From a bacterium (GTDB taxonomy: Bacteria > SAR324 > XYD2-FULL-50-16): a stretch of DNA of 24,008 nt. The position numbers were made by a program, and so were the translations under genes. Below the pieces are notes generated by a model. That model did not search any database and was not told where the DNA came from. It saw only the letters and a program-made list of their open reading frames with translations. The stretch covers positions 1 to 24,008 of the forward strand of contig JAJRZQ010000044.1 in NCBI GenBank assembly GCA_024275165.1, written 5' to 3'. This document shows positions 1,934-20,746 of this stretch, one piece after another (the first letter of the stretch is position 1; every line of letters starts with the position of its first letter).

Positions 1934-2827
1934 ATGATCAACAGTTTGCCCCCCCACCAGCCAGAACAAAGGTTAGAACTTTTACGAGGCGAACAAGTCC
2001 CCATCAAAGAAAAAGAATTTCAACAATTTTCCCAATTGATCTACCAAGAAAGCGGGATCAATCTGACCCGGGATAAACAAAGCCTGCTCAAAACCCGCTT
2101 AAACAAAATGCTCAAGCAGGCGGGGATGAGCAACTACCAAGCATACTACGAATACATCACCCTGCGACAAAACAAAGACAAGCTCTTAGAGGTCATTGAC
2201 GCCATTTCCACCAACCACACCTTCTTTTTTCGTGAGCCCGAACACTTTGCGTTGCTCAAAAAACTGGTCCTCCCCGACTTAAGCCAAAAGCTCAGTGCCG
2301 AGGGGAGCAAGGATTTACGGCTTTGGTGCGCCGCCAGCTCCAGCGGGGAGGAGCCCTATTGCCTGGCCATGACCTTAATGGAGTTTTTCGGGCCCCAATA
2401 CCCCCATTGGAAGGCCGGAGTGTTGGCGACCGATATTTCCACCAAGGTATTGAACTTCGCCCAAAAAGGGATTTACAACCCCAATCAATTAAGCGGTCTG
2501 CCCCAGGCACTGCAGAACAAGTATTTCAACTCTCAAGCCGACGGCTCGGCAGAGGTCAAAGATTTTTTAAAAAAAGAGGTTCTCTTCCGCCGCTTCAACC
2601 TGATGAACGAACAATATCGATTCCGCCAGCCCTTTCATCTTATTTTTTGCCGCAATGTACTGATTTATTTCGATAAAGCAACGGTAGAACAGGTGATCCA
2701 CCGCTTTTACCACTGCCTCGCCCCGGGGGGCGTCCTCTTTGTCGGTCACTCTGAATCCCTCAAGCGCATCAAAAACCCTTTTTCCCTGCAACTAGGCCCC
2801 TCGGTTTTTCAAAAGGAACTCGCATGA
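1934..2827 (+). CDS. cheR: CheR, chemoreceptor glutamate methyltransferase
   Basis: Cytoplasmic enzyme that transfers methyl groups from S-adenosylmethionine to glutamates in chemoreceptor signalling helices; with CheB and CheD it sets adaptation. At 297 residues it is of normal CheR length. An N-terminal helical domain (about 27-95) with ESGINLTRDKQSLLKTRL is followed by ISTNHTFFFREPEHF at the domain junction. The SAM-binding Rossmann part has WCAASSSGEEPYCLAM (W131 onward), the acidic motif ATDIS, and the late FCRNVLIYFD segment. The ATG at 1934 is the only reasonable start because an in-frame TAA lies at 1925; no clear Shine-Dalgarno sequence precedes it. The stop codon overlaps the cheB start as ATGA, so the two are translationally coupled. 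The partner receptor is probably the four-PAS protein in the facing operon. Confidence 0.96.
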   Translation: MINSLPPHQPEQRLELLRGEQVPIKEKEFQQFSQLIYQESGINLTRDKQSLLKTRLNKMLKQAGMSNYQAYYEYITLRQNKDKLLEVIDAISTNHTFFFREPEHFALLKKLVLPDLSQKLSAEGSKDLRLWCAASSSGEEPYCLAMTLMEFFGPQYPHWKAGVLATDISTKVLNFAQKGIYNPNQLSGLPQALQNKYFNSQADGSAEVKDFLKKEVLFRRFNLMNEQYRFRQPFHLIFCRNVLIYFDKATVEQVIHRFYHCLAPGGVLFVGHSESLKRIKNPFSLQLGPSVFQKELA

Positions 2828-3900
2828 AAGAACAGGCCAAACGAAAGATCCGGGTTTTGGTTGTCGACGACTCCGCCTTGGTACGCAATGTCATCAAAGA
2901 GGGTTTAAACCAAGACCCCAATTTGAAGGTAGTGGGCACGGCGAGCGACCCCTTCATCGCCCGCGACCAAATTGTCGCCTTAAACCCCGATGTCATGACC
3001 TTAGATGTCGAGATGCCCCGCATGGATGGCATTGAATTTTTAAGGCACCTCATGCCGCAACACCCCATGCCGGTGATCATCGTCAGTTCCTTAACCGAAA
3101 GAGGGGGCGAGGTCACTTTGGCGGCCTTAAATTCAGGGGCCCTGGATTTTATCACCAAGCCAAAGGCCAATGTGGCAGGGGGCCTCCCCGTGATGCTGGG
3201 AGAACTGCGAGAAAAAATAAAAATCGCCTCTCAAGCCAACCTTTCAGGCTGGAAAAAAGCCAAAACCCCCACCGCCCCAGCCCAGAACTACAAAGCCGAC
3301 TTAGCCCAAACCACCGACAAGGTGATTTGCATCGGGGCCTCTACCGGAGGCACCCAGGCAATCCGCGAGGTCTTAACCCAAATGCCGGTCAACATGCCGG
3401 GCATTGTCGTGGTACAGCATATGCCCCCAGGCTTTACCAAACAATTTGCCGATCAAGTGAATCAATATTGCCAAATCCAAGTCAAAGAGGCGGAACAGGG
3501 CGACCGAATCCTGCCGGGCATCGCCTTGATCGCTCCTGGTGACCTCCATATGAGCATTCGCCGGATTGGAGGGGAATACCGAGTGGAGATCCAGGAGGGG
3601 GAAAAGGTTTGCGGTCATCGCCCCTCGGTCGAGGTACTCTTCCGCTCTGCCGCTAAATTTGTGGGGCGCAACGGGATTGGGGTGATGCTCACGGGAATGG
3701 GTCATGACGGAGCCGCCGGCATGCTCTCCATGCGCCAAGTGGGTAGCCGCACCCTAGCCCAAGACGAGAAGAGTTCGGTTGTCTATGGCATGCCCAAGGT
3801 GGCCTTTGAAAACGGCGGGGCCGAGGTGCAAGTGAATTTGAAAGACATCCCCGCAACCCTTTTAAAGCTTGCCGCCGGCTTGAATCAAGCCCGGGCTTGA
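2824..3900 (+). CDS. cheB: CheB, receptor methylesterase/deamidase with receiver domain
   Basis: Removes receptor methyl groups when phosphorylated by CheA, closing the adaptation loop. The N-terminal receiver domain (about 8-130) has acidic-pocket residues D15 and D16, phosphoacceptor D61 in TLDVEMP, a switch Ser in IIVSS and the conserved Lys in FITKP. After a Pro/Ala-rich linker, the methylesterase domain (about 165-355) shows the full catalytic triad: Ser173 in GASTGG, His199 in VVQHMPPGF and Asp295 in GMGHDGAAGM. The length (358 aa) is typical. It overlaps cheR by four bases, forming a two-gene unit transcribed toward the cheD end of the main chemotaxis operon. Confidence 0.97.
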   Translation: MKEQAKRKIRVLVVDDSALVRNVIKEGLNQDPNLKVVGTASDPFIARDQIVALNPDVMTLDVEMPRMDGIEFLRHLMPQHPMPVIIVSSLTERGGEVTLAALNSGALDFITKPKANVAGGLPVMLGELREKIKIASQANLSGWKKAKTPTAPAQNYKADLAQTTDKVICIGASTGGTQAIREVLTQMPVNMPGIVVVQHMPPGFTKQFADQVNQYCQIQVKEAEQGDRILPGIALIAPGDLHMSIRRIGGEYRVEIQEGEKVCGHRPSVEVLFRSAAKFVGRNGIGVMLTGMGHDGAAGMLSMRQVGSRTLAQDEKSSVVYGMPKVAFENGGAEVQVNLKDIPATLLKLAAGLNQARA

Positions 3901-4187: not shown

Positions 4188-4787
4188 TTAGTCCCATAAA
4201 TCCACCCCGTCGTTGGAATCGGCTTGATGGTGAATCGAAGACTTCCAAAAATGGCGTTCCTTTTCGGTAATCACCTCGGTCTGATTGCGCGCGATATTTT
4301 TTTTCAATACCGTATAATCCTGCTGAAAAAAGTAGATCATGCGGCCCTGCGTCCCCCCTAAATCAGAAGCGTGCAGCGGAATTTTTTCCGCTCGCAGAAA
4401 CTCTTTCGCAAAGCGAACATTGACCTCCCCAATGCACATAAAATTATCTGCCCCCTTTTGCAAGTCCAGCACCGCGGCCCCTCCAAAGGCCTTTGCTTGC
4501 AGGTTCTTTTTTTTAGCCCCCAACTTGAGCAAGGAGTTAATGAGCAGTTCCATGTAATGCACCCCATAGCGGCCCGCGTCGGAATCGGTAAACTTCATGG
4601 TTTTGGAAAACCGCTGACTCGCCAAAAGAAAATGATTCATCCCCCTTACCCCTTGCAGCGGGTCATAGAGGCAAACGGCAATACAAGAGCCCAACAGGGT
4701 GCTAATCACCTCCTCCCCCTGGGTCGCGTAATATTCGCCCGGCGCCAGTACCATGGCCACCCCGTCTTTTAATTGCCGTTGCATCAT
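4188..4787 (-). CDS. cheD: CheD, chemoreceptor glutamine deamidase
   Basis: Deamidates specific receptor glutamines to glutamates so that CheR can methylate them; in some bacteria it also works with CheC-type phosphatases. The 199-residue protein has the expected catalytic Cys35 in LLGSCIAVCLYD and His52 in RGMNHFLL, with a KAFGGAAVL strand later, as in CheD structures. The C-terminus has about 35 charged residues beyond the core, which is within family variation. The start is ATG-ATG with GAGG about eight bases upstream. It is the last gene of the - strand chemotaxis operon, 42 bases after the ABC1-kinase gene, and converges on cheB. No cheC or cheX is in the window, so its usual regulator would have to be elsewhere or absent. 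Confidence 0.95.
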   Translation of the reverse strand: MMQRQLKDGVAMVLAPGEYYATQGEEVISTLLGSCIAVCLYDPLQGVRGMNHFLLASQRFSKTMKFTDSDAGRYGVHYMELLINSLLKLGAKKKNLQAKAFGGAAVLDLQKGADNFMCIGEVNVRFAKEFLRAEKIPLHASDLGGTQGRMIYFFQQDYTVLKKNIARNQTEVITEKERHFWKSSIHHQADSNDGVDLWD

Positions 4788-4829: not shown

Positions 4830-6383
4830 CTATTCCAGCCAGACCTCAACCTGCTTTCCCTTCTCAAGCTCAATGTGAAATAGGGCTTGGGGTTGATATT
4901 GGTTTTTCCTCACCTCCTCAACGATTTGGCCCAGGTCGATTTTTCGTTGCTGAATCCGAGTTAAGATTTCTGGAGGAATAATCTCTTCAATCCGTTCAAT
5001 GGAACTCCTAGAAAAAGCAAGCTGTACCTTGGTTTGCCCCTGCTGGCTGACCTTAATTTTCAAATGCTTGGCCATGCTGTCGTATCCCTTGGCCTCCGGT
5101 ATTTCACAAACCTTGAGACGCTCTTGAATCTCCATCTGAAACGGTTTCGATACCTCTTCCAATAAAGGGGTCAGCCAAATCGGCTCTTTTAAGTGACCTA
5201 AATAATAAAACAACCCCGTAAAGGCGCGAACGAGCAGCAAGGCATCGGCTGGCGCGGCAATACGAAAATTCCAACGATCATCGTGTAGAATTCCCGCAGC
5301 CCGTTCGCTACGCTTCCAACCTTTTAAATCATACTGCCCCATAGAGAAAAAAGGTTCGCTCAACAACTCGGTCAAGGCGGGGAGTTTTTGTTGTAAGGGC
5401 TCTAAAAACAAAGCAGAAAACCCCAAGGAAAGGTAAAGGGGATAGGGGTTGCGGGTCCCTCGAAACTTGCTGCTCCATAAAATAGCCAAAAGATTGATCC
5501 GTTGCCTCCGGTCCTGGCGGCCCACCGACCCAAAATCATAGGTGATCACCTCGATCCTACCCTTTTCTTTACGAAAGGCGTAATTGCCGGGGTTGGGGTC
5601 GGCATGAAACATCCCTTCTCGAAAAAGGCTATGCATAAAAATATGGGCCAGCAACTTTTGGGCTTTGCGTTTTTCCTTCCCGCTCCAATGCTTGCAGACC
5701 TCTTGCAGGCTTTGCCCCCCCTCCCACACGCTCACCAACACCTTATCGGTGCAAAGCTGGGCGAGCAGTTCGGGCACCACCCACCCCTGGATGGAACTCT
5801 CTTCGGCGATGCGGGAAAACTCCGCTTGATTCTCCATCTCTTGGATATAGCTCAGTTCCGCATCCATATTGCTTTGAATCGCTTTTTTATAGCTGTCTAA
5901 GTCAAAGCCGCGGCTCAAGCCCCCAAAGGGAATGGAAAGGTAATTGAGCAGGCGCGCGTCGGCCCGCACCGCTTTTTTAATCCCCGGGTATTGAATCTTA
6001 ATGGCCACCTGCCCCCCTGTTTTCAAGGTGGCGCGGTGTACCTGACCTAAGGAGGCGCTCAATCCCACGGGTTCAATTTCTTCTAAAATCACATAGGGGT
6101 CGAGCCCCCATTCCCTCTCAATGATTTTTAAGACCTGCTCTAAGGGAATCGCTTCGCAATCATGCACCAAGGACATAAAATCATTATCCAATTCTCTTTG
6201 AGAAGACATGGCGATCATCTGACCGACCTTCCCCGGCAGTCCCTTGAGTTCTTTAATCTGACCGATCATTTTTTCTACTAAATCCCCTCGTTCCGATCCT
6301 TCCGGCATCCCTTTCAGCTGTTTTGCCTGAAAGCCTAAGGAGGCAATTGAAAAACTACGGGTCAATAGGTTACTTCTCATCAT
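4830..6383 (-). CDS. ABC1/AarF/UbiB-family atypical kinase-like protein
   Basis: Member of the ABC1 (UbiB/ADCK) family of atypical kinase-like ATPases, best known for supporting ubiquinone biosynthesis and lipid handling. Visible hallmarks are the KxGQ motif (K52-Q55 in GKVGQM), the Ala-rich nucleotide loop as SASLGQVHRA, the lysine strand VAIKIQYPG, the catalytic-loop segment FHADPNPGNY and the metal-binding YDFGSVG. All look intact. The usual C-terminal membrane helices of UbiB are not evident; instead the last 150 residues are charged and helical, so it may be soluble. The start is ATG-ATG behind ACGAGGAAAC. It sits 15 bases after the STAS gene and before cheD, so it is co-transcribed with chemotaxis genes, which suggests a signalling or receptor-linked role rather than quinone synthesis. 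The family call is firm; the function is inference. Confidence 0.9.
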   Translation of the reverse strand: MMRSNLLTRSFSIASLGFQAKQLKGMPEGSERGDLVEKMIGQIKELKGLPGKVGQMIAMSSQRELDNDFMSLVHDCEAIPLEQVLKIIEREWGLDPYVILEEIEPVGLSASLGQVHRATLKTGGQVAIKIQYPGIKKAVRADARLLNYLSIPFGGLSRGFDLDSYKKAIQSNMDAELSYIQEMENQAEFSRIAEESSIQGWVVPELLAQLCTDKVLVSVWEGGQSLQEVCKHWSGKEKRKAQKLLAHIFMHSLFREGMFHADPNPGNYAFRKEKGRIEVITYDFGSVGRQDRRQRINLLAILWSSKFRGTRNPYPLYLSLGFSALFLEPLQQKLPALTELLSEPFFSMGQYDLKGWKRSERAAGILHDDRWNFRIAAPADALLLVRAFTGLFYYLGHLKEPIWLTPLLEEVSKPFQMEIQERLKVCEIPEAKGYDSMAKHLKIKVSQQGQTKVQLAFSRSSIERIEEIIPPEILTRIQQRKIDLGQIVEEVRKNQYQPQALFHIELEKGKQVEVWLE

Positions 6384-6398: not shown

Positions 6399-6746
6399 TT
6401 AAGGGTTAGGGGTCTCTAAACCACTAACGCTGGTGATCCAAGTTAATTTTTCAAATCCTGAAACCTCTAAGGCTTCACTGAATACTTCGGGAAAGGGCTC
6501 TAACACAGAGACCTCTTTCTGCATTGCCTTGGCGGTCACACTCGCTGAATAAAGCAATTGCAAAACCGCAAAGGAAATCTCTTCCAGCCCCGCCATATTT
6601 AAGACGATAAAATCATTGTGTTCCAAGCCGGTGAGCAACTCTTGGTAGCACGTCCCCGCTTGAGCCACCGTCAACTGAGGCGGCAGCCGCAATAAAATTC
6701 CCTGGCTCGCCCCCTGGCTTACCTTTTGTGTCTTCCATGCGTCCAT
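6399..6746 (-). CDS. STAS-domain protein lacking the usual phosphoacceptor Ser
   Basis: Small cytoplasmic protein (115 aa) with the alternating strand/helix pattern of STAS domains (SpoIIAA/anti-sigma antagonist type): a LLRLPPQLTVAQAG start, FIVLNMAGLEEISFAVLQLL core and an LTWITSV C-terminal strand. In SpoIIAA-like proteins the core reads D-S-(S/A)-G-L with Ser phosphorylated; here the aligned residues are S58-F59-A60-V61-L62, so Phe replaces the Ser and Val the Gly. It therefore cannot be controlled by phosphorylation at that site and may act as a constitutive binder or scaffold. The start has GAGGG about eight bases upstream. It sits 24 bases after the 623-residue coiled-coil gene and 15 bases before the ABC1 kinase gene. 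Confidence 0.8.
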   Translation of the reverse strand: MDAWKTQKVSQGASQGILLRLPPQLTVAQAGTCYQELLTGLEHNDFIVLNMAGLEEISFAVLQLLYSASVTAKAMQKEVSVLEPFPEVFSEALEVSGFEKLTWITSVSGLETPNP

Positions 6747-6770: not shown

Positions 6771-8642
6771 TTAAAAAAGAAGAACATCGTCATCCAATTC
6801 ATGGGGTTGCCCCTGCGCTGATCCCCCCGCGCCGGGCCCTCGGCTCGCTTCAAACTCTTTAACCAATAAATCGGCGATCTCCGCCCCCCCCAGCGTAGCG
6901 AGCGACTCTTTCAAAGTCGTTCGTTCCTGCGCCGTTGTATAGGTGCCGTAAAGGTATTTGAGCCGTTCTCGCAACTGGGGGCGGAATTGCGGCTTCAACC
7001 CCAGGGGGGGGGTTCTACGGGTAAGCAGCCGTTGCATCTCCTCTTTTACCCCCGCGGTACCCCGCAATAAAGTTTGATTGAAATCCAATTTCGACAGCAA
7101 ACTTTGGGATTCCAGGCTCAAGCGAATGGAGGTTTGCGCCACCTGCGACATGCTTTTTAAAATCTCTTCTTGGGTTTTAACCAGGGTTTGAATCTCTTTT
7201 TGAGCCTTCTCCCGTTTCGCGGCAATAATCTTCACCCGCTGTCGCAGGCTCTCTTGCAGACGATTGCTACGATCTTCAATGAGTTGAGAAACCTTCTCGA
7301 TTTCTTCACGCTCTTGCAAAAAAAGGCTTTCCATCTCGGCGGAAAGCTCACGAATGGCGCTGGAGATAATCTTTAAACTCCCTTGCTGCCCTTGCATGTT
7401 TTTGGTTTGCAACATGGAATTAAGAGAGAGCAACTCTAAATCTTCTCGAATGCGTTCCACATCGAGAATTTTTTTGATCATCTGTTGCATCTCTTGTTTG
7501 GTTTTCGCGGTGACCTCCAATAGATTCTCCATTAAGTCATGGCTATTGCTCAAGTATTGCAAGAGGCTGTCGAATTCCTTTTCCAAGTAACCTGCCACCT
7601 CTAAGCTTTCCTTTCTCACCTGCAAGGCTTGACTGGAGCTACTCTCCTGTACCCCTGCCTGCGTTAAGATCTCTTGAATTTTTTCATGAACGGTCTCAAA
7701 CATATTGTTGCCTTGGATTTCAACCCGGTTTAATTGATGCAGATTGATCTGGAACAATAAAGGCAACCACTCGTCCCCCGGACCTTGAATATCCAATCCT
7801 GCTAGAGGCGCCCCCTCCAAGGGCTTTAAGGCAAAGGAGTCCTGGATATGATCCAACTGCTGCTGGGTGATATCATGGTATTGCAACGCCTGGATGACCT
7901 CATTGATCTTTGGGGTGAGTAGGGCGGTCGAGCCGTCGATTCGGCGGCAGCATTCACCCAAGACTTTGCCGGTAAAAGCCAACTGGCGCAGCACTGGATT
8001 CCATTCCTTGAAGGGCCGAAGCACTCCGGCCTCCATTTCGTCCGCTTCCTGCTGCGCCATGGCCCGGAAGGAACCAATGGTTTGATTGATCCGTTCCACA
8101 ACCCGAGAGAGTTCCTGAATATGAATCGAGGCCTGATTGGCCAACCGCTTCAACTCCTCTACCATGGGATCAAAATCCACCGCCCTTTGCTTAGAGGACT
8201 CGATATTCATCACCGTACTAATATTGAGAATCAGATTGGAATGCTGCTCAATCCGATCTTGCCAACGGCAAATCTGATTCACCCGAATCTGCATTTTCCG
8301 TAAATCCTCAAACCCCTCGCTTAAGTCTTTTAGACCCACGAAAATTTCTTTTTTGAGCTCCTCTTTCAGCGTTTCCAAGGCTTGAGGAGAAAAGGCGTCT
8401 TCTGTCTCCAACTGCTTTTGCAGTTTAAAAGAGAGGTCGGCGTTGATCCGGTAGCTTTTTTGCAAGTCTCTCAACAGCCTCGACACCTTCAAGACTTGGG
8501 CCTCGGTCTCTGCGGAGATGCCATGTAAAAGCCCTTGCATCTTGCTTAGATTGGGCTCAAAATCAGCACTACCTATCATGGAAACCTTTTTAAACCAAAG
8601 TTGCATCCACTGCCGGGGAAAAATCGCCATGGCAAAATTCAT
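6771..8642 (-). CDS. Large coiled-coil chemotaxis protein with CheZ-like motif and C-terminal tail; candidate CheY-P phosphatase
   Basis: I do not recognise a named family for the full 623 residues. It is almost entirely helical and charged, with long coiled coils (about 30-240 and 320-560) and no membrane segment. Residues 252-266 read LQYHDITQQQLDHI, which resembles the catalytic helix of CheZ (FQDLTGQVI): D257 and Q261 keep the D-x-x-x-Q spacing of E. coli CheZ D143 and Q147. The protein ends in a Gly/Pro/Ser-rich flexible stretch and then ELDDDVLLF, like the acidic-hydrophobic CheY-binding tail of CheZ (VDDLLDSLGF). CheZ has about 214 residues, so this would be a threefold larger relative. 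Its ATG overlaps the cheA stop as ATGA, coupling it to the kinase. No other CheY phosphatase is visible in the window. Alternatives are an adaptor or a receptor-like scaffold. The gene is firm, the phosphatase role is inference. Confidence 0.6.
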   Translation of the reverse strand: MNFAMAIFPRQWMQLWFKKVSMIGSADFEPNLSKMQGLLHGISAETEAQVLKVSRLLRDLQKSYRINADLSFKLQKQLETEDAFSPQALETLKEELKKEIFVGLKDLSEGFEDLRKMQIRVNQICRWQDRIEQHSNLILNISTVMNIESSKQRAVDFDPMVEELKRLANQASIHIQELSRVVERINQTIGSFRAMAQQEADEMEAGVLRPFKEWNPVLRQLAFTGKVLGECCRRIDGSTALLTPKINEVIQALQYHDITQQQLDHIQDSFALKPLEGAPLAGLDIQGPGDEWLPLLFQINLHQLNRVEIQGNNMFETVHEKIQEILTQAGVQESSSSQALQVRKESLEVAGYLEKEFDSLLQYLSNSHDLMENLLEVTAKTKQEMQQMIKKILDVERIREDLELLSLNSMLQTKNMQGQQGSLKIISSAIRELSAEMESLFLQEREEIEKVSQLIEDRSNRLQESLRQRVKIIAAKREKAQKEIQTLVKTQEEILKSMSQVAQTSIRLSLESQSLLSKLDFNQTLLRGTAGVKEEMQRLLTRRTPPLGLKPQFRPQLRERLKYLYGTYTTAQERTTLKESLATLGGAEIADLLVKEFEASRGPGAGGSAQGQPHELDDDVLLF

Positions 8643-10726
8643 ACCCCTACCAGTTCAAAAAGGTTCAACACCAAAGCGACCGTACCGTCTCCCAGCAAAG
8701 TGGTGCCTGAAAAGCGGCCTTTCCCCGCGATGGTGGGGGTTAAGGGTTTGATGACCGATTGATGCTCCCCGATCACCAAATCAATCGAAAAACCCACCAA
8801 ACTGTTTTCGACCCGAGCGATTACGATTTGTTCCAATTCCGGTGGTTCCCCTCCAAGTTGGAACAGGTTCCTCAAGCGCACAAAGGGTAAAACCTCGCCC
8901 CGAACCTTGATGGTCAAGGTTCCGTTGACCGACCTCACCTCTTTGGAATGGATGGCGACACATTCTTCTACCGTGGCCAGAGGAAAAACATAAAAGCAAT
9001 CCGCGACCCGTACCAAAAGCCCTTCGATCATGGTTAAGGTTAAGGGGAGGTGCAAAACAAAAGTGGTGCCCCGGCCCCACTCGCTCTCCACGGCAATCTT
9101 GCCGCGCAGGGACTCAATGTTTTGCCGCACCACATCCATCCCCACCCCCCGACCCGAAACAGAGGTCACCTTTTCGGCGGTGGAAAACCCAGGGTGAAAC
9201 AAAAGAGCGTAGGCCTCGGAGTCGCTCAAGCTCGCGTCGGGCTCAATCAGCCCCTGCTGCTTGGCTTTGGCAATCACCTTTTCTTTATGGATCCCCGCGC
9301 CGTCATCGGCAACGCGTAAAATGATATTGGTTCCAGAGTGAATCGCGCTCAAGCTCACCTTACCCTGGCTCGGTTTCCCCACTTTTTTGCGCTGCTCGGG
9401 TCGTTCGACCCCGTGATCAATCGCGTTGCGGATCAAATGTACCAGAGGGTCATTGAGTCGTTCGATTAAGGTTTTATCCAGTTCCGTGGTTTCTCCCTCC
9501 GTGATCAGTTCCACCTCTTTACCCAATTCCTGGGACAAATCACGCACCAAGCGTTTGAACTTGCTGTAAGCGGTACCAATGGGCAGCATCCGCAGTTCCA
9601 TGGTGGCCTCTCGCAATTCAGCCGCCAGACGGGTCAAGCCTTCGGCCATGTTATCTAAAGCGGGATCATCGCGAGATTGCACGATCTGTGAGATATGGGC
9701 CTGCATGGTGGTCAACTCCCCCACTAAGTCCACCAAGGCATCGAGTCGTTGTGAGGGCACCCGAATACTGCTTTGATCCCGCTCTTTCTCTTTTTTCTTC
9801 TGCTTGGAGCGAATCATCTTCTGCTCGCTCAAGGCAGACTGAACTTGCAAATCGCTCACCAGACCCGATTGGGTTAGGAGTTCGCCCACCTTAGGCTGGG
9901 CTCGCAATAGCTTTTCCAGCTCTACAGAAGTCACCGCCCCTCGCTGGGCCAGAATTTGCCCCAACTGGGTCACCGATTCGACATCCTGCTCTTCATCAAG
10001 CTGAATCGGTTGAATCTCCAACCGACAAGCCTGCTCCACAAACATAAAGACATCTTTTAAGGGCTGAATCCCCTGGGGGGAAAAGACTAAGACCTCCCAT
10101 GAGGTATAACAAACTTCGGGGTCCAACTCCTCTAAATGAGGGATTCCCTCCACTTGAGGAAACACCTCCACCTCTTCTAGTTCCTTCAACTCCCGCAATA
10201 AAGCCAAGGGCTTATAACCGAGAAAAAAATCCTCTTGGGGCGCAAAACGAACCCAAAACATCCCCTCTCCTTTTGCCTCCGGCCTTTCTTGTGCGCTGGG
10301 GTCCGCCGTTGCCTGAGGGGCTTGGGGCGCAGGCGCAGGTTGCTCCATCAAACCCCGCAGCAGTTGATCCACCTCCAAGGCGCGCTGTTGCCCCTCAGCA
10401 CTCAAGTCCCCCTCGTCCACTAAAAACTCTTGAATCTGGTCATGGGCCTTCAGCCCCAAGGCAATGAGCTGCTCGGTTACCCCTAAAGCCCCCGAACGCA
10501 CCTGATCAAAAGCGGTTTCAATGTGATGGGCAAAGTCGGAGAGCTCGGTAAAACCAAACATGGCCCCACTGCCTTTAATGGTGTGCAGGGCGCGAAAAAT
10601 ATTATGAACCTGCGCCTCGTCCGCGGGGTTGTCTTCCAATTCCAGCAAGCCCTCCTCCATGACCTTTAAGAGGTCTTCGGCTTCTTCTTTAAAGGCAAGG
10701 CGGCCTTTTTCCAACGCGCTACTCAT
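8639..10726 (-). CDS. cheA: CheA, chemotaxis sensor histidine kinase
   Basis: Phosphorylates CheY and CheB in response to receptor state. Domains in order: Hpt/P1 with phosphoacceptor His48 in RALHTIKGSGAMFGF; an atypical region (about 150-310) in place of a clear P2; P3 dimerisation (about 320-385, starting IRVPSQRLDALVDLVGEL); P4 ATPase with N-box HLIRNAIDHG (His430-Gly439), G1 box around DDGAG (D474-D475) and G2 box SGRGVGMDVV; and a CheW-like P5 (about 565-695). The atypical region has an alpha/beta-looking part starting MFWVRFAPQEDFFLGY, then two helical half-repeats LGQILAQRGAVTS and VGELLTQSGLVSD, like the N-terminal modules of GspE-type ATPases. At 695 residues the size is normal. It overlaps both cheY (upstream) and the coiled-coil gene (downstream) by ATGA junctions. 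Confidence 0.96.
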   Translation of the reverse strand: MSSALEKGRLAFKEEAEDLLKVMEEGLLELEDNPADEAQVHNIFRALHTIKGSGAMFGFTELSDFAHHIETAFDQVRSGALGVTEQLIALGLKAHDQIQEFLVDEGDLSAEGQQRALEVDQLLRGLMEQPAPAPQAPQATADPSAQERPEAKGEGMFWVRFAPQEDFFLGYKPLALLRELKELEEVEVFPQVEGIPHLEELDPEVCYTSWEVLVFSPQGIQPLKDVFMFVEQACRLEIQPIQLDEEQDVESVTQLGQILAQRGAVTSVELEKLLRAQPKVGELLTQSGLVSDLQVQSALSEQKMIRSKQKKKEKERDQSSIRVPSQRLDALVDLVGELTTMQAHISQIVQSRDDPALDNMAEGLTRLAAELREATMELRMLPIGTAYSKFKRLVRDLSQELGKEVELITEGETTELDKTLIERLNDPLVHLIRNAIDHGVERPEQRKKVGKPSQGKVSLSAIHSGTNIILRVADDGAGIHKEKVIAKAKQQGLIEPDASLSDSEAYALLFHPGFSTAEKVTSVSGRGVGMDVVRQNIESLRGKIAVESEWGRGTTFVLHLPLTLTMIEGLLVRVADCFYVFPLATVEECVAIHSKEVRSVNGTLTIKVRGEVLPFVRLRNLFQLGGEPPELEQIVIARVENSLVGFSIDLVIGEHQSVIKPLTPTIAGKGRFSGTTLLGDGTVALVLNLFELVGV

Positions 10727-11088
10727 CCCACCACCTTTTTGACCACCATCAACAACTTTTCCGGAACAAAGGGCTTAACCAGCCAACCATTGGCCCCGGC
10801 GCTCCGCCCCTCTTCCTTTTTAGAGATTTCCGACTCCGTGGTGAGCATGACGATGGGAAGAAACTTATGCCCTTCTTCTTGCCGAATGGAGCGGATCAGT
10901 TCCATCCCATTCATGACCGGCATATTTAAATCGGTCAGCACCATGTTGAAACGATGCTGGGCCAATTGGCTTAAGGCGTCTTCTCCGTTTTCCGCTTCCA
11001 CCACCCCATAACCGGCTTCCAGCAGGGTTAACTTCACCATTTCCCTCATACTCGAAGAGTCATCGACGATTAATATTTTCTTGTCCAT
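10723..11088 (-). CDS. cheY: CheY, single-domain response regulator
   Basis: Receives phosphate from CheA and presumably binds the flagellar switch. All receiver landmarks are present in 121 residues: D9 and D10 in IVDDSSSMR, phosphoacceptor D53 in LTDLNMP, Thr83 in MLTTES and Lys105 in LVKPF. The aromatic switch position equivalent to E. coli Tyr106 is Trp102 (GANGWLVKP), as in many CheY proteins outside the enterics. A good ribosome site (AAGGCGGA) precedes the ATG. The stop overlaps the cheA start (ATGA), and it follows the receptor gene by 35 bases. It is the only stand-alone receiver here and so the likely target of the CheZ-like protein two genes downstream. Confidence 0.96.
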   Translation of the reverse strand: MDKKILIVDDSSSMREMVKLTLLEAGYGVVEAENGEDALSQLAQHRFNMVLTDLNMPVMNGMELIRSIRQEEGHKFLPIVMLTTESEISKKEEGRSAGANGWLVKPFVPEKLLMVVKKVVG

Positions 11089-11123: not shown

Positions 11124-14100
11124 TTAATAGCGACCAAAATCCCCTTCGAGAGAGATCACATCCGCGGGATGAATGGAATTCACCTTATCCCCCCCTGCCT
11201 TTATTGGCGTTTCGGGTAAGGCCTTGGGTTTTTTGCTTGTTTCCGAAATCCGCTGAGGGCGCGCCACCGGCTGATACTCCGCTTTTTGCCCTCCCCTTTG
11301 CTGATGGATCATTTTTTGAATCATCGCTATGAGTTCGGGAGAGAGCCCTGAGGGGAGTTCCATCTCTTCGTTTTGTTCTTTTAACTTAAACTGAGAGACC
11401 AATTCTTGCAGTTGCCCCGACTGTTGGGCCAGTTCTTCGGCAGCGGCGGCGCTTTCTTCCGAGTTCGCCGTATTCTGCTGGGTCACCTGCTCGATTTGAT
11501 TTAAGCCCGTATTGATCTGGTTGATTCCTTCGGCTTGTTCCTTGCTTGCCGCGGCGATTTCCGCCACTAGATCGCTCACCTTGCCGACATTGGAGACGAT
11601 TTCGGTTAGGGCTTCTGCGGTTTTATCGGCGATTTGAATCCCTTGGCGCACCTTTTTAGCCGAATCCTCAATCATCTCGGTGGTCTCCTTCGCCGCCTGA
11701 GCGCTACGGCCCGCGAGGCTCCGTACCTCGTTGGCCACGACGGCGAATCCCTTGCCGTGTACCCCCGCGCGCGCGGCCTCTACCGCGGCATTCAAGGCCA
11801 ATAAATTGGTTTGGAAGGCGATTTCATCAATCACCTTGATGATTTTGGAGATGTTCTGACTGGATTCTTCGATTGTGGACATGGCCGTGATCATCTCTTT
11901 CATCTGCTCATCACCGGTCTGGGCGTTGCTCCGCCCCGCGTCGGCCAAGCTGTTGGCCTGATTGGCGTTTTCCGCGTTGGCCACCGTTTGACTGGCCAAC
12001 TCGGTCATGGAAGCGCTCACCTCCTCTAAAGAACTCGCCTGCTCGGTGGAGCCTTGAGCCAAGGATTGACTGGAAGAGGCGATTTGCTCGCTGCCGTCGG
12101 AAATCTGATTCACTGCCCGGTTTACCTTGCCGAGCAGGCTATTCATATTCTGCACAATCTGGCTGATCGCCTTGCCCATGGCGTCCACCCCTGATTTCGG
12201 GGTCACCTCTACGGTTAAATCCCCCTCGGCAATTTGACTGGAGGCTTTGGCCAACTCCCTTAAGGATTCTAAGGTATTGTTGAGGGAATTTTTGAGGATT
12301 GCGTGGTCTCCCTTATAATCCCCGGTTACAAAGGCCTCTACATCGCCTAGGGCGATTTCTCCCAGCCGCTCTTGAATCTCGCTCAAGGGAAAAACAATGG
12401 CCTCAATGATTTGATTGATGTTTTCCACCATGGGCTGAAAGGCTTTCGGCACCGTCTCCACCTGGCCCCGTTCTTTTAAGTTGCCCTCCATCACCTGCGT
12501 CAGCAAGCGATCCACCTCGCTGCTGTAAATCGCCCGATCATTGTAATCCAGCCATTCCACAGCGTTGCCGATTAAATTGCCCTCTTTGTCCAAAAGCGCC
12601 GTGGCGTTCACCCCGAACTCCAACTTGCCCAGTTTCAGTTCGGACTGAAAAGGCAGATTCGCCTTGTTGGTTAAAATCTTTCTTTGGTGCGCCGGGTTGA
12701 CATGGTAACTGTCGATACAGGTGCCTACCAAATCGTCTACGCTAAATTGAGGTAAATTCTTTTTGAGTTCCGACTCATACTGGCGCATCATCTCCAGCAC
12801 CGCAGGGTTGCAGTAGGTAATCACCAAATCCTTGTCGCAGATCATAAAATTGGTCTTGGCCGTTTCGATCAACCCCCAAAGACGAGACACCTCGGTTTCG
12901 TTGCTGCGGGTCGCGGTCACATTCGACCATTCCAAGGTGTTGCCGATATAACTCCCCTCCGCGTCGCGCATGGCAGATACATTGAGGTTAAAAGTTAATT
13001 TACCCACCTGAATATCGGCCTGGTAGGGCAAATTATCCGCGTTCGCCAGCAATTTGCGTTGGTGTTCTGGGTGTTGGTGAAACCGATCAATGCAACTCCC
13101 TACAAAATGATCCAAAGAAAACCCGGGGAAGGCGGCACGGAATTCGTCTAAGTTTTCTTGAATCATCTTTTCGGTCGCCGGATTGGCATAGGTAATCACC
13201 AAGTCACGGTTGCAATTGATGATCGCCTGGGCCGCCCCGGAAAGGGAGGATTGCAACCGCGCCGAATTGTTGCGTTCTTGCATCAAGTCCGTGGTATTGG
13301 CCCAGTTGAGGGTTGTCCCGATATACTTCCCCTCGCTATCGAGGTTGGCGCTGATATTTAAAGAAAAGAACAAAGGCCCGACCTGAATCGTGGTTTGGTA
13401 GGGCAGGTTTTTCGGGTCGCTCAAAAGTCGGCGCTGATGCTCCGGGTTCTTGTGAAAGGCATCAATGCAGGTTCCGATGATCGTTTTGGCATTAAAACCG
13501 GCAAAGGCTTGTTCAAAAACCTTTTGGTTCTCCTCAAAAAGTTTATAGGTCGCCGGATTAACCCAACTGATGACCAAATCGCGGTCACACATAATCACCG
13601 CCTGATTGCTCCCCTCCAAGGCGCTGGTTAAGAGTTCCGCCTTGTTGGCAAAGGATTCTTTTTCAGTGATGTTTTCCCACTCCACTGCATAATGAGACTT
13701 TTTCCCTTCCTCATCCGCCTGGGCGGTGGCGTTGAACATAAAAACGAGCTTGCCTGCATTGATCTTGGCGCGGTGACTTTCACCGGGCCGCAGATGCTGT
13801 AAGACTCGGCGGATCATCTCGGGATCTTTATGAAAGCGGTGAATGCTCTCGCCTAAAATCTGACTCGCTTTAAATCCGGGGATGTAGCTTGCCAATTCGG
13901 CTTCCACCTGCTGAAAGGTTTGGGTCGTATTTTCGTTGAGATAGATGATTTTTTCGTCCAAATCAGCGATCATGATATTGCTTTTGCTTTGATGTAATAT
14001 CTGCCGCAATAGCATTGGATTTATTTGAGAAAGGGCATCGACTTGCTGATTCATGGCACCACCTGATTGAGGATGAAAAAAAGAAACTTGAGCTTGCGGA

Positions 14101-14285
14101 CTCGGCGTTATGGGTTGCCTCGGAGTTAAAGGAGCTGTGGGGGGCGGGGCCGCTCGCCTGGGCTCCGGCTTGGTTGTCGCCTCACCGAGGGTCACCTTGG
14201 TGAGCTCCTTCCCTCTAGCGGTTTGCGGGTTGGCTTGGTCTGGTTGATTTGGTTGATTTGGTTGATTTGGTTGAATATCCTTCAT
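11124..14285 (-). CDS. Soluble methyl-accepting chemotaxis protein with four tandem Aer2-like PAS domains
   Basis: Cytoplasmic chemoreceptor (1053 aa, no hydrophobic membrane segment). A low-complexity Q/P/N-rich N-terminus (1-77) precedes four PAS domains repeating every 125-126 residues. Their key helices read FHKDPE (151), FHKNPEHQ (277), FHQHPEHQ (402) and YHVNPAHQ (527), each followed about 51 residues later by a Trp in a final strand (W203, W328, W453, W578). This His helix plus late Trp resembles the heme PAS of Pseudomonas Aer2, so gas sensing is plausible. HAMP-like helices (about 620-720) lead to the MCP signalling hairpin, with its tip at [18 protein letters not shown] (from F824). 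The C-terminus ends GDFGRY and may dock CheR/CheB. Met78 has a better ribosome site (AGGTGG) than Met1, so the true start is uncertain. It lies between cheW and cheY. Confidence 0.9.
14241..14276 (-). repeat. 9-bp tandem repeat encoding Asn-Gln-Pro units
   Basis: Three exact copies of TGGTTGATT and a fourth with one change (TGGTTGAAT) lie head to tail on the + strand, with a degenerate fifth unit beside them. On the coding strand they give repeated QPN triplets just after the first Met of the chemoreceptor. Copy-number change would be in frame and only lengthen or shorten a flexible tail. Confidence 0.75.
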
Positions 14286-14311: not shown

Positions 14312-14821
14312 TTAAGGTTCCGCTGTTTCGGTGGAAACAACAAAGCGGGCGAGATCCAAAAGCAGAATGATTTCCTCATTCAGCTTGCCGATTCCCTGAA
14401 CAAAATTCTTGCCCTTATAATCGCGGGTAGCGGGGGGCTCTTGGATGTTTTCTTCGCTGATATAAACGACATCTCGCATCTCATCGACGATCAATCCGGT
14501 CTCCAACCCTTCAAAATCAACCACAATAATACATTTTCTCACTTGGTCATGGGCCGGGCCCATGATAAAGCTCGCGCGCAGGTCAACCACGGGGATCACC
14601 TTGCCCCTTAGATTGATCACGCCTAAAATGCAGGCATCCACATCGGGGACCTTGGTAATCCGCTGCATTTGAATAATTTCAATAACATGACAAATTTCTA
14701 GACCATAGACTTGAAAATCCGCTTCATTACCTAGGGCAAAGGTCAAATACATTCCATCCATCATGTTTTCCGCCTCTTCTACTTCAACCTCTTCCATGGA
14801 TGCCTCTGCATTCTTCTTCAT
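14312..14821 (-). CDS. cheW: CheW, receptor-kinase coupling protein
   Basis: Adaptor that joins chemoreceptor tips to CheA. After an acidic 25-residue N-terminal extension, the 169-residue protein has the CheW fold: YLTFALGNEADFQVYGLEICHV is recognisable in outline, then VPDVDACILGVINLRGKVIP (the most conserved CheW signature) and the later GLIVDEMRDVV and ILLLDLAR strands. It is the first gene of the - strand operon, directly upstream of the four-PAS receptor (26 bases), and behind a predicted promoter ending in a perfect TATAAT. The genes order as coupler, receptor, regulator, kinase, which supports one dedicated signalling array. Confidence 0.95.
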   Translation of the reverse strand: MKKNAEASMEEVEVEEAENMMDGMYLTFALGNEADFQVYGLEICHVIEIIQMQRITKVPDVDACILGVINLRGKVIPVVDLRASFIMGPAHDQVRKCIIVVDFEGLETGLIVDEMRDVVYISEENIQEPPATRDYKGKNFVQGIGKLNEEIILLLDLARFVVSTETAEP

Positions 14822-18880: not shown

Positions 18881-20746
18881 ATGACATCCGATAAATTCTA
18901 CCAAGGCCCCAACATTATCCACCCTGAAAGGGAAAGCGCGGTCGGCAGTCGCAACAGCCTGCACCGTGATGGCCGAAACGAATACAACGAATCCAAACTC
19001 TTAATCGACGAAGAGGTAGAAAAAATCCTCTCTCATGTCGAGGCAAAGCTTCCCCCAGAGGTTTTAGAAAAGCTGCATATCGGGGGCACGGTCAAGGAGT
19101 TGTTGCACAACTACTTCAACCAAGCCTTTCACAACATGTACAACCGCTACCTGGTTACGGCAGAAGACGAGCTTTCCAAAAAGTTCCGCAGCATGATCGA
19201 CCAGGAAGAAACCAAAGGGTTGAACAAACACGCCCCCAAGCAAATTTCCGAGTTGCTCGACAGTTTAGGCGGCGCCGCCAACTTCAACAACCAGGATTTG
19301 GAATCGAGCATTGTCAGTATTTATTCCCAATTGCAGTCTCACCTGCAAAAAGGGGTCTATGATCTGCAAAAAAAGACCAGTCAGGTGCTCCAAGAAAAGG
19401 CGGAGGTTTCCGGCTTGGTCAACACCGACTTCACCTACTCCTTGGTCAATTGCCATATTGCCGACAACCCCCTCAAACCAGAAACGGTGACGGATGTTTC
19501 GATGGTGATCAACATCTTAGAATCAGAGTTGTTAAGCCCCATCTTCCACTTTCAAGCCACTACCGAAAGCATCATCAAAGATGTCATCAGCACCCAAATT
19601 TTAGAGCGCGTTGATGAAGAAATCGAACAGCTCAAGCAAAAGCTCAGCGCGCAAGGGGAAGAAAAAATCACCGAAGCGGAAGAAGTTTTTGAAAAATTCC
19701 GCAAGTTGGAAAACTATGTGGATTTTGAAAATACCCCAGAATCCCCCCAATACTCCTTTGTGGCAAAAGACTTTTTTGAAAAAATCGAAGGCATCGGCTC
19801 AGAGATTTTAAAAGATTCAAGTTACGACCCCCTCAACATCCGCGAGAACCTGCAACGCATCGTAGACGAGGGAAAACTCCGAACCCGCGGATTCAACAAA
19901 GCGGTAAACGCGTTGACCAACTACCTCGACAACAACCAACTAGGCTACCAGCACATCGAGAACTTCAAAAACGCTCGCAAGGTTCATATCGCCGAATACG
20001 GCGACACCGACGCGGCCTCACTGCCCGATGAGCGCTATGCCATTTCCCTAACCTATTACGACAACGAGCAAATTCGCACCCAAAGGCGCGCCTACGCCGC
20101 TCAAATCAGCGAACTCCAACAAGAAGTCGATACCCTTTGGAATGTTTTTGATCAAATCGGGGCAAAGCGCAGGGAAAAGGCAGGCAATGTGGATTTTCAA
20201 GTTTTGTCTCAAATCTACTCTCAAGGCCCCCCGCCTCCACCCAGTTTTTTTGAGCGGCTCTTGGCTAAGTTTTTCAAAACAAAGCGCAGCCTGCCCAAAC
20301 CCTCAGAAGGGGATAAAGTCAAACTCTGGGACGAAGCCGAGATCATCAAACCCAAAGAAACGGTGGGTTTTGACCTAGACAACACCACCTATACCTTTAA
20401 CCCGCAAAAGCAGTACATCACCACCAAGTTGAAACTGTTGAGCCATAAAATCAGCGAAAGCTTCGGCGCTGAAATCAACCCCCAACGACAGATCTTGCAA
20501 GATCGGCTGGAGTTTTTAGAAGCGAATTTTGAAGACTTCTTAAAAGGCTATAACCCCTTTAATGTACGACCAGGGTTGTTTCTTGAACTGCGCCTCTCTA
20601 CCGTTGCCAAGAAAAAAACCACCATGCGCGCTATGGGCGAGGTCTTAAACGATTTCTTGGGGATCGTCGCCAAAGGCTTTGTCGATATCAGCGGGCAAAG
20701 GCCCCCTAACAGCGCCAAAACAACCGAAGAAGCCATAGCCAGCTAA
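18881..20746 (+). CDS. CfpA-like cytoplasmic filament protein (spirochaete type)
   Basis: A 621-residue, highly charged, mostly helical cytoplasmic protein without membrane segments or enzyme motifs. From memory its N-terminal half resembles CfpA, the subunit of the ribbon-like cytoplasmic filaments of Treponema: compare VKELLHNYFNQAFHNMYNRY, VTAEDELSKKFRSMID and the later IRENLQRIVDEGKLRTRGFN and LPDERYAISLTYYD. Length is close to the treponemal protein (about 670-680 aa). Coiled-coil stretches are clear at about 230-275 and 385-435. A Pro run (450-454) and a basic patch (FFKTKRSLPK) separate the body from a C-terminal helical domain. Start: ATG behind GAGG. It is a single-gene unit between its own predicted promoter and a strong terminator. 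The family assignment rests on recalled similarity and should be treated as probable; the alternative is an unrelated structural coiled-coil protein. Confidence 0.55.
   Translation: MTSDKFYQGPNIIHPERESAVGSRNSLHRDGRNEYNESKLLIDEEVEKILSHVEAKLPPEVLEKLHIGGTVKELLHNYFNQAFHNMYNRYLVTAEDELSKKFRSMIDQEETKGLNKHAPKQISELLDSLGGAANFNNQDLESSIVSIYSQLQSHLQKGVYDLQKKTSQVLQEKAEVSGLVNTDFTYSLVNCHIADNPLKPETVTDVSMVINILESELLSPIFHFQATTESIIKDVISTQILERVDEEIEQLKQKLSAQGEEKITEAEEVFEKFRKLENYVDFENTPESPQYSFVAKDFFEKIEGIGSEILKDSSYDPLNIRENLQRIVDEGKLRTRGFNKAVNALTNYLDNNQLGYQHIENFKNARKVHIAEYGDTDAASLPDERYAISLTYYDNEQIRTQRRAYAAQISELQQEVDTLWNVFDQIGAKRREKAGNVDFQVLSQIYSQGPPPPPSFFERLLAKFFKTKRSLPKPSEGDKVKLWDEAEIIKPKETVGFDLDNTTYTFNPQKQYITTKLKLLSHKISESFGAEINPQRQILQDRLEFLEANFEDFLKGYNPFNVRPGLFLELRLSTVAKKKTTMRAMGEVLNDFLGIVAKGFVDISGQRPPNSAKTTEEAIAS

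Follow-up and report, generated by a model that had tools for sequence, protein, structure and literature searches.

A candidate CheY-P phosphatase built on a duplicated chemoreceptor hairpin in a SAR324 bacterium

CheZ is an enzyme whose role is to turn the swimming signal off. In a chemosensory gene cluster of a SAR324 bacterium, the gene that follows cheA encodes a 623-residue protein which had been read, from the DNA letters, as a large CheZ-like phosphatase of CheY-P fused into a coiled coil. We asked what this protein is derived from, and whether it could serve as the off-switch of its own cluster.

The gene, its locus and its family

The window (the whole stretch of 24,008 nucleotides that was analysed) carries the gene on the minus strand only, as a 623-codon open reading frame running from 8642 to 6771; the plus strand of the same interval has many stop codons. 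Its ATG overlaps the stop codon of cheA, confirming the ATGA coupling that had been proposed. On the minus strand cheW comes first, followed by the gene of a PAS-rich receptor, by cheY and cheA, by the 623-residue protein gene, and then by a STAS gene, the gene of an ABC1-type kinase and cheD (Table 1); the position next to cheY and cheA is as the sequence-only reading had stated. The ABC1/UbiB-type kinase gene (4830-6383, minus strand) separates cheD from the STAS gene; at many family loci a STAS-domain gene is located between the family gene and cheY-cheA. The same window also contains a 7TMR-DISM SpoIIE-phosphatase gene (9-1748) and a plus-strand gene (18881-20746) for a 621-residue protein without a significant Pfam match.

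Table 1. Positions in the window of the gene, of segments of its product and of neighbouring chemosensory genes.
Feature	Positions	Strand	Basis or remark
Receptor-derived CheZ-like protein gene, 623 residues	6771..8642	-	ORF and AlphaFold2 model; stop codon counted in
N-terminal helix, residues 28-80, with conserved TExxFLxxG patch (E47, L51, L57)	8403..8561	-	Alignment and AlphaFold2
MCP-like hairpin 1, residues 86-270, tip 152-154	7833..8387	-	AlphaFold2, profiles, Foldseek
CheZ-like motif LQYHDITQQQLDH, residues 253-265, with D257 and Q261	7848..7886	-	Family alignment, CheZ profile register
MCP-like hairpin 2, residues 288-541, tip 416-420	7020..7781	-	AlphaFold2, profiles
Decayed second motif copy LDFNQTLLRGTAGV, residues 519-532	7047..7088	-	Half-versus-half alignment
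Family motif YTMxxERxxH, here YTTAQERTTL, residues 568-577	6912..6941	-	Alignment
Disordered C-terminal linker and tail, residues 606-623, ending ELDDDVLLF	6774..6827	-	AlphaFold2 and tail comparison
STAS-domain protein, next gene	6399..6746	-	Common in family loci
cheA, upstream gene, overlapping	8639..10726	-	
cheY	10723..11088	-	
PAS-rich chemoreceptor of the cluster, C-terminus GDFGRY	11124..14285	-	
cheW, single-domain	14312..14821	-	
cheD	4188..4787	-	
cheR	1934..2827	+	
cheB	2824..3900	+	

The window had been described as having no cheX, cheC or ordinary cheZ. This is true of the window but does not extend to the genome, in which we found three CheX and a canonical CheZ (413 residues; C3:97309-98001) that contains FQDLTGQ, ends in LAEFGF and lies beside FlaG. 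The genome (2.7 Mb) has four CheA loci. Contigs C29, C9, C11 and C32 hold the three further cheA loci and, on C32, a receptor beside a partial CheA-like reading frame; multiple chemosensory systems coexist in the source genome.

A genome scan with the 623-residue sequence alone gave no matches; an alignment-based scan succeeded. A whole-protein search of relatives in which no motif was required returned four diverged homologues (17-19% identity), two directly beside cheA and a third with cheA a few kilobases off. All four have [YF]HD[IN]xRQ and a C-terminal peptide resembling LGDN[VI][ED]LF. Scanning with the alignment of these four homologues identified 51 loci from Nitrospirae, Desulfovibrio, Geobacter (L030, L046, L056 and L065), other Deltaproteobacteria, Bacteroidetes, Ignavibacteria, Armatimonadetes, a spirochaete and SAR324, and cheY-cheA linkage was found in nearly all of them. 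Because the scan used the D/Q motif as its search pattern, the conservation of the motif among these loci follows in part from how they were selected. Conservation across the family also extends to the tail, the YTMxxERxxH motif and the TExxFLxxG patch, none of which belonged to the pattern.

We also built a motif-free profile from the first half of the protein with the D/Q motif left out. It gave one strong match (E < 1e-40) per genome in 22 genomes, and two in one of these; ordinary receptors were far weaker (1e-12). Over 383 genomes the profile had matches in eight. In plasmids, the searches returned only a partial receptor match, in Methylosinus, and none for the single-hairpin form described below. 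A canonical CheZ is also present in 12 of the 22 genomes that carry the family, which rules out the family as a general replacement for CheZ.

Receptor ancestry of the protein body

An AlphaFold2 model computed from an alignment of 48 family sequences was all-helical, with no strands and a pLDDT of 85, in agreement with the helical protein first proposed. When the N-terminal half was modelled alone, a hairpin was predicted again. The top Foldseek matches of this half were chemoreceptors, and in structural alignment the best among the matches listed was Tm1143 (2ch7; Z 13.5, rmsd 3.7 over 256 residues). Compared with receptors in the PDB by profile, the first half matched 3g67 (1.1e-18) and the second half matched 2ch7 (2e-25). 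The two halves aligned with each other nearly without gaps over 193 columns (E 7.7e-18), placing the D/Q motif opposite a decayed copy of itself in the second half. Since the halves match each other and also match receptors in profile and fold, the body of the protein is, as judged from sequence and predicted structure, a tandem duplication of the MCP signalling hairpin, with the CheZ-like site carried by the descending helix of copy 1. The idea of a CheZ fused into a coiled coil therefore had the anatomy wrong; the body is a duplicated receptor hairpin, and its similarity to CheZ is at the background level of MCPs.

Convincing Pfam and NCBIfam matches of family members were to receptor models only. 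For PF00015 (cut-off 34.6 bits) the 623-residue protein scored 16.3 bits, the cut-off was exceeded by L004 (54 bits), L072 (40.1) and L048 (36.9), and 42 of the 48 members had a match at E 0.01. Simple hydropathy indicated no credible transmembrane segment in the long members, with a single weak window in L026 and in L070, and domain searches found no sensor domain. The family thus resembles the MCP signalling domain (PF00015; the Thermotoga soluble receptor 3g67, Tm1143 2ch7 and Tsr 1qu7) in the profile and predicted fold of both halves, and differs in having two tandem hairpins with diverged tips, an added CheZ-like site and tail, and, in its long form, neither a transmembrane nor a ligand domain.

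A related arrangement is known from DosM, a cytoplasmic receptor with a tandem double signalling domain in F9 chemosensory systems (PMC9321776). By its description, DosM likewise has two tandem MCP signalling domains, whereas a CheZ-like site is not described there, and the F9 class has a triple-domain CheW partner where the cheW of the window is single-domain.

Two proteins of 390-430 residues, L142 and the spirochaete L066 (L066:7680-8969), have a hydrophobic N-terminus, retain the MCP tip intact and carry one copy of the motif each (FQDITRQ and YHDIIRQ, respectively). These single-hairpin proteins look like the unduplicated form and are possible ancestors of the family.

The D/Q motif and its relation to CheZ

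Residues 253-265 contain YHDITQQ, with D257 and Q261 in the D-x-x-x-Q spacing that had been noted, carried by the long helix 155-270 of the AlphaFold2 model. The expectation that both residues would be conserved in orthologues held in 48 of 48 aligned sequences, in a set for which both residues were part of the search pattern. Among hits of a motif-free search that lay outside the earlier set, D and Q were kept in four of seven (L137, L144, L140 and L142), with H, D or Q at the position ahead of D. In L142 (FQDITRQ) it is Gln, exactly as in the CheZ sequence FQDLTGQ. In L141, L143 and L145, which are diverged paralogues, the motif has been lost along with the YTM motif and the tail. Among 1519 reading frames of at least 150 residues in the family loci, [FY]xD[ILN]xxQxxxH is confined to family members; together with the tail conservation given below, this is more than chance would give.

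The profile search against CheZ did not bear out the proposed similarity: the hhalign probability was weak (5-33%), shifted with the alignment, and nothing rose above the CheZ cut-off. With PF04344 (cut-off 30.7 bits) the 623-residue protein had no match, and the best member reached 22.1 bits. In the sub-threshold hits of L027, L035, L066, L067 and L072, the motif Asp falls at profile position 129, as does the catalytic Asp of a canonical CheZ fragment; this register was inferred from the ends of alignments whose scores are sub-threshold. As a control, ordinary MCPs scored against the CheZ model as high as the family did, over other stretches that do not cover position 129. Overall similarity to CheZ is uninformative for this reason, and only the register of the hits was used; the PF04344 matches in 7 of 48 members were dropped as evidence of homology. 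In fold searches with the full-length model, the matches were generic helical bundles. The fold matches listed did not include CheZ (1kmi), which we do not count as absence, and helical hairpins are predicted.

Several features are common to the family and CheZ (PF04344; E. coli, PDB 1KMI): a long helix that bears D-x-x-x-Q within the same local surroundings, [FY]-x-D-[IL]-x-x-Q, an all-helical hairpin and a disordered linker (both predicted for the family), a conserved acidic-hydrophobic C-terminal peptide and a che-gene context. The family differs from CheZ in its length (about 600 residues against 214-430), in its MCP-derived body with an internal duplication and one site lost, in its tail (D-N-V-E-L-F against DxxDxLLxxLGF) and in the additional YTMxxER motif.

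The C-terminal tail and the proposed function

The C-terminus, GAGGSAQGQPHELDDDVLLF, is as first described, and its linker is disordered in the model, again as proposed. The family peptide is (L)GDNVELF, and 49 of 50 members, none of them found by means of the tail, terminate in [VILF][ED][LF][FW]. The pattern D-x-[VI]-[DE] is present in 40 of 50 family tails, in 16 of 25 CheZ tails and in 1 of 45 MCP tails. Because the tail is conserved and shares this pattern with CheZ tails, CheY would be its likeliest partner. Copies of D-x-x-[VI]-[ED]-L-F are repeated in some members (six in L063:955-2925, four in L051:7326-9236 and four in L004:397-2613), with a spacing of about nine residues in L051 and L063, and a few other members have one extra copy. 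The tandem motifs look as if they provided multivalent docking.

The pentapeptide NWETF of receptors is a tether for CheR or CheB, and the receptors of family clusters often share a C-terminal [ED][FY]x[KRH][FY], such as GDFGRY in the MCP of the window, which is likely a CheR tether of a distinct type. One could thus view the protein as a non-catalytic scaffold or adaptation helper, derived from an MCP and joining the array, whose C-terminal peptide tethers CheR or CheB. Its clear MCP ancestry fits such a role, and NVELF is superficially like NWETF, all the more in three Geobacter-type members that end in NFELF. The tails argue otherwise: 20 of 45 receptor reading frames of the family loci have an aromatic residue at -4, a basic one at -2 and an aromatic one at -1 (EFEKF, EFERY), whereas family tails have a basic -2 in 0 of 50 and an aromatic -4 in 3 of 50. 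Moreover, the tail motif does not require a free C-terminus, since it is repeated internally up to six times, and a scaffold leaves the invariant D/Q pair unexplained. We consider this role unlikely.

The protein could also be a cytoplasmic sensor: the polar residues of HD..Q..EH, QxxQ and YTMxxERxxH would make up a site for a metal or ligand within the bundle, and this site would signal to the array; indeed, the conservation of H256, H265, Q303 and YTMxxER comes close to that of D/Q. However, H256 is replaced by Asp in L140 and by Gln in L142, the 623-residue protein itself has Leu at the family H577 position and Asn at 300, and the tail is not accounted for, which makes a sensor improbable. 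Equally doubtful is a buffer or sink that docks CheY-P through tail and bundle without hydrolysis and so modulates output: the tail is conserved and multivalent and several genomes also have CheZ or CheX, but the acid-amide pair is invariant and in catalytic spacing.

We favour, as the rather more probable reading, a CheY-P phosphatase of the CheZ type that derives from an MCP and is dedicated to its own chemosensory system. The cheY of the cluster probably encodes its substrate. In CheZ and CheX-type phosphatases, an amide orients the attacking water and an acid pairs with the lysine of the receiver (PMC3035606). According to the profiles and the predicted model, the two MCP-type hairpins of one chain make up a long bundle similar to a dimer of receptors, and the descending helix of hairpin 1 would present the D257/Q261 pair. 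D257 would contact the active-site lysine of CheY and Q261 would orient the water, as their counterparts do in CheZ; one site per chain would be left, since the second copy has decayed. The disordered tail motif would dock the cognate CheY, and the receptor-like body may retain the phosphatase in its own array or close to it. Such acid-plus-amide catalysis on CheY-P would parallel that of CheC, CheX and FliY, which differ in having an alpha/beta fold and a Glu/Asn pair where the 623-residue model is all-helical and has no strands.

As a tentative proposal, the family may have arisen from a chemoreceptor and constitute a new class of CheY-P phosphatase. A CheZ-type site would have evolved on the descending helix of an MCP hairpin, perhaps independently of CheZ, and L142 and L066 are transmembrane single-hairpin forms that exist to this day; the hairpin would then have been duplicated with one site kept. 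Located within the array or next to it, the protein would now act as the off-switch dedicated to a STAS-CheY-CheA system across several phyla.

A literature search, with most subscription journals outside its scope, returned no description of the family or of any receptor that bears a CheZ-like site. In 2008, a survey of Geobacter concluded that cheZ is missing from the genomes and that a CheZ-independent mechanism must operate (PMC2577667), and a later study counted the lack of known phosphatases in favour of phosphate sinks (PMC10542144). The family may hold the missing phosphatase activity in Geobacter, Nitrospirae and Bacteroidetes, and it offers specific residues and a tail motif for testing. 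It would also show that a receptor scaffold can become an enzyme within the pathway to which it belongs. This widely spread family, which has no name, is probably an off-switch that has been overlooked in such bacteria as Geobacter.
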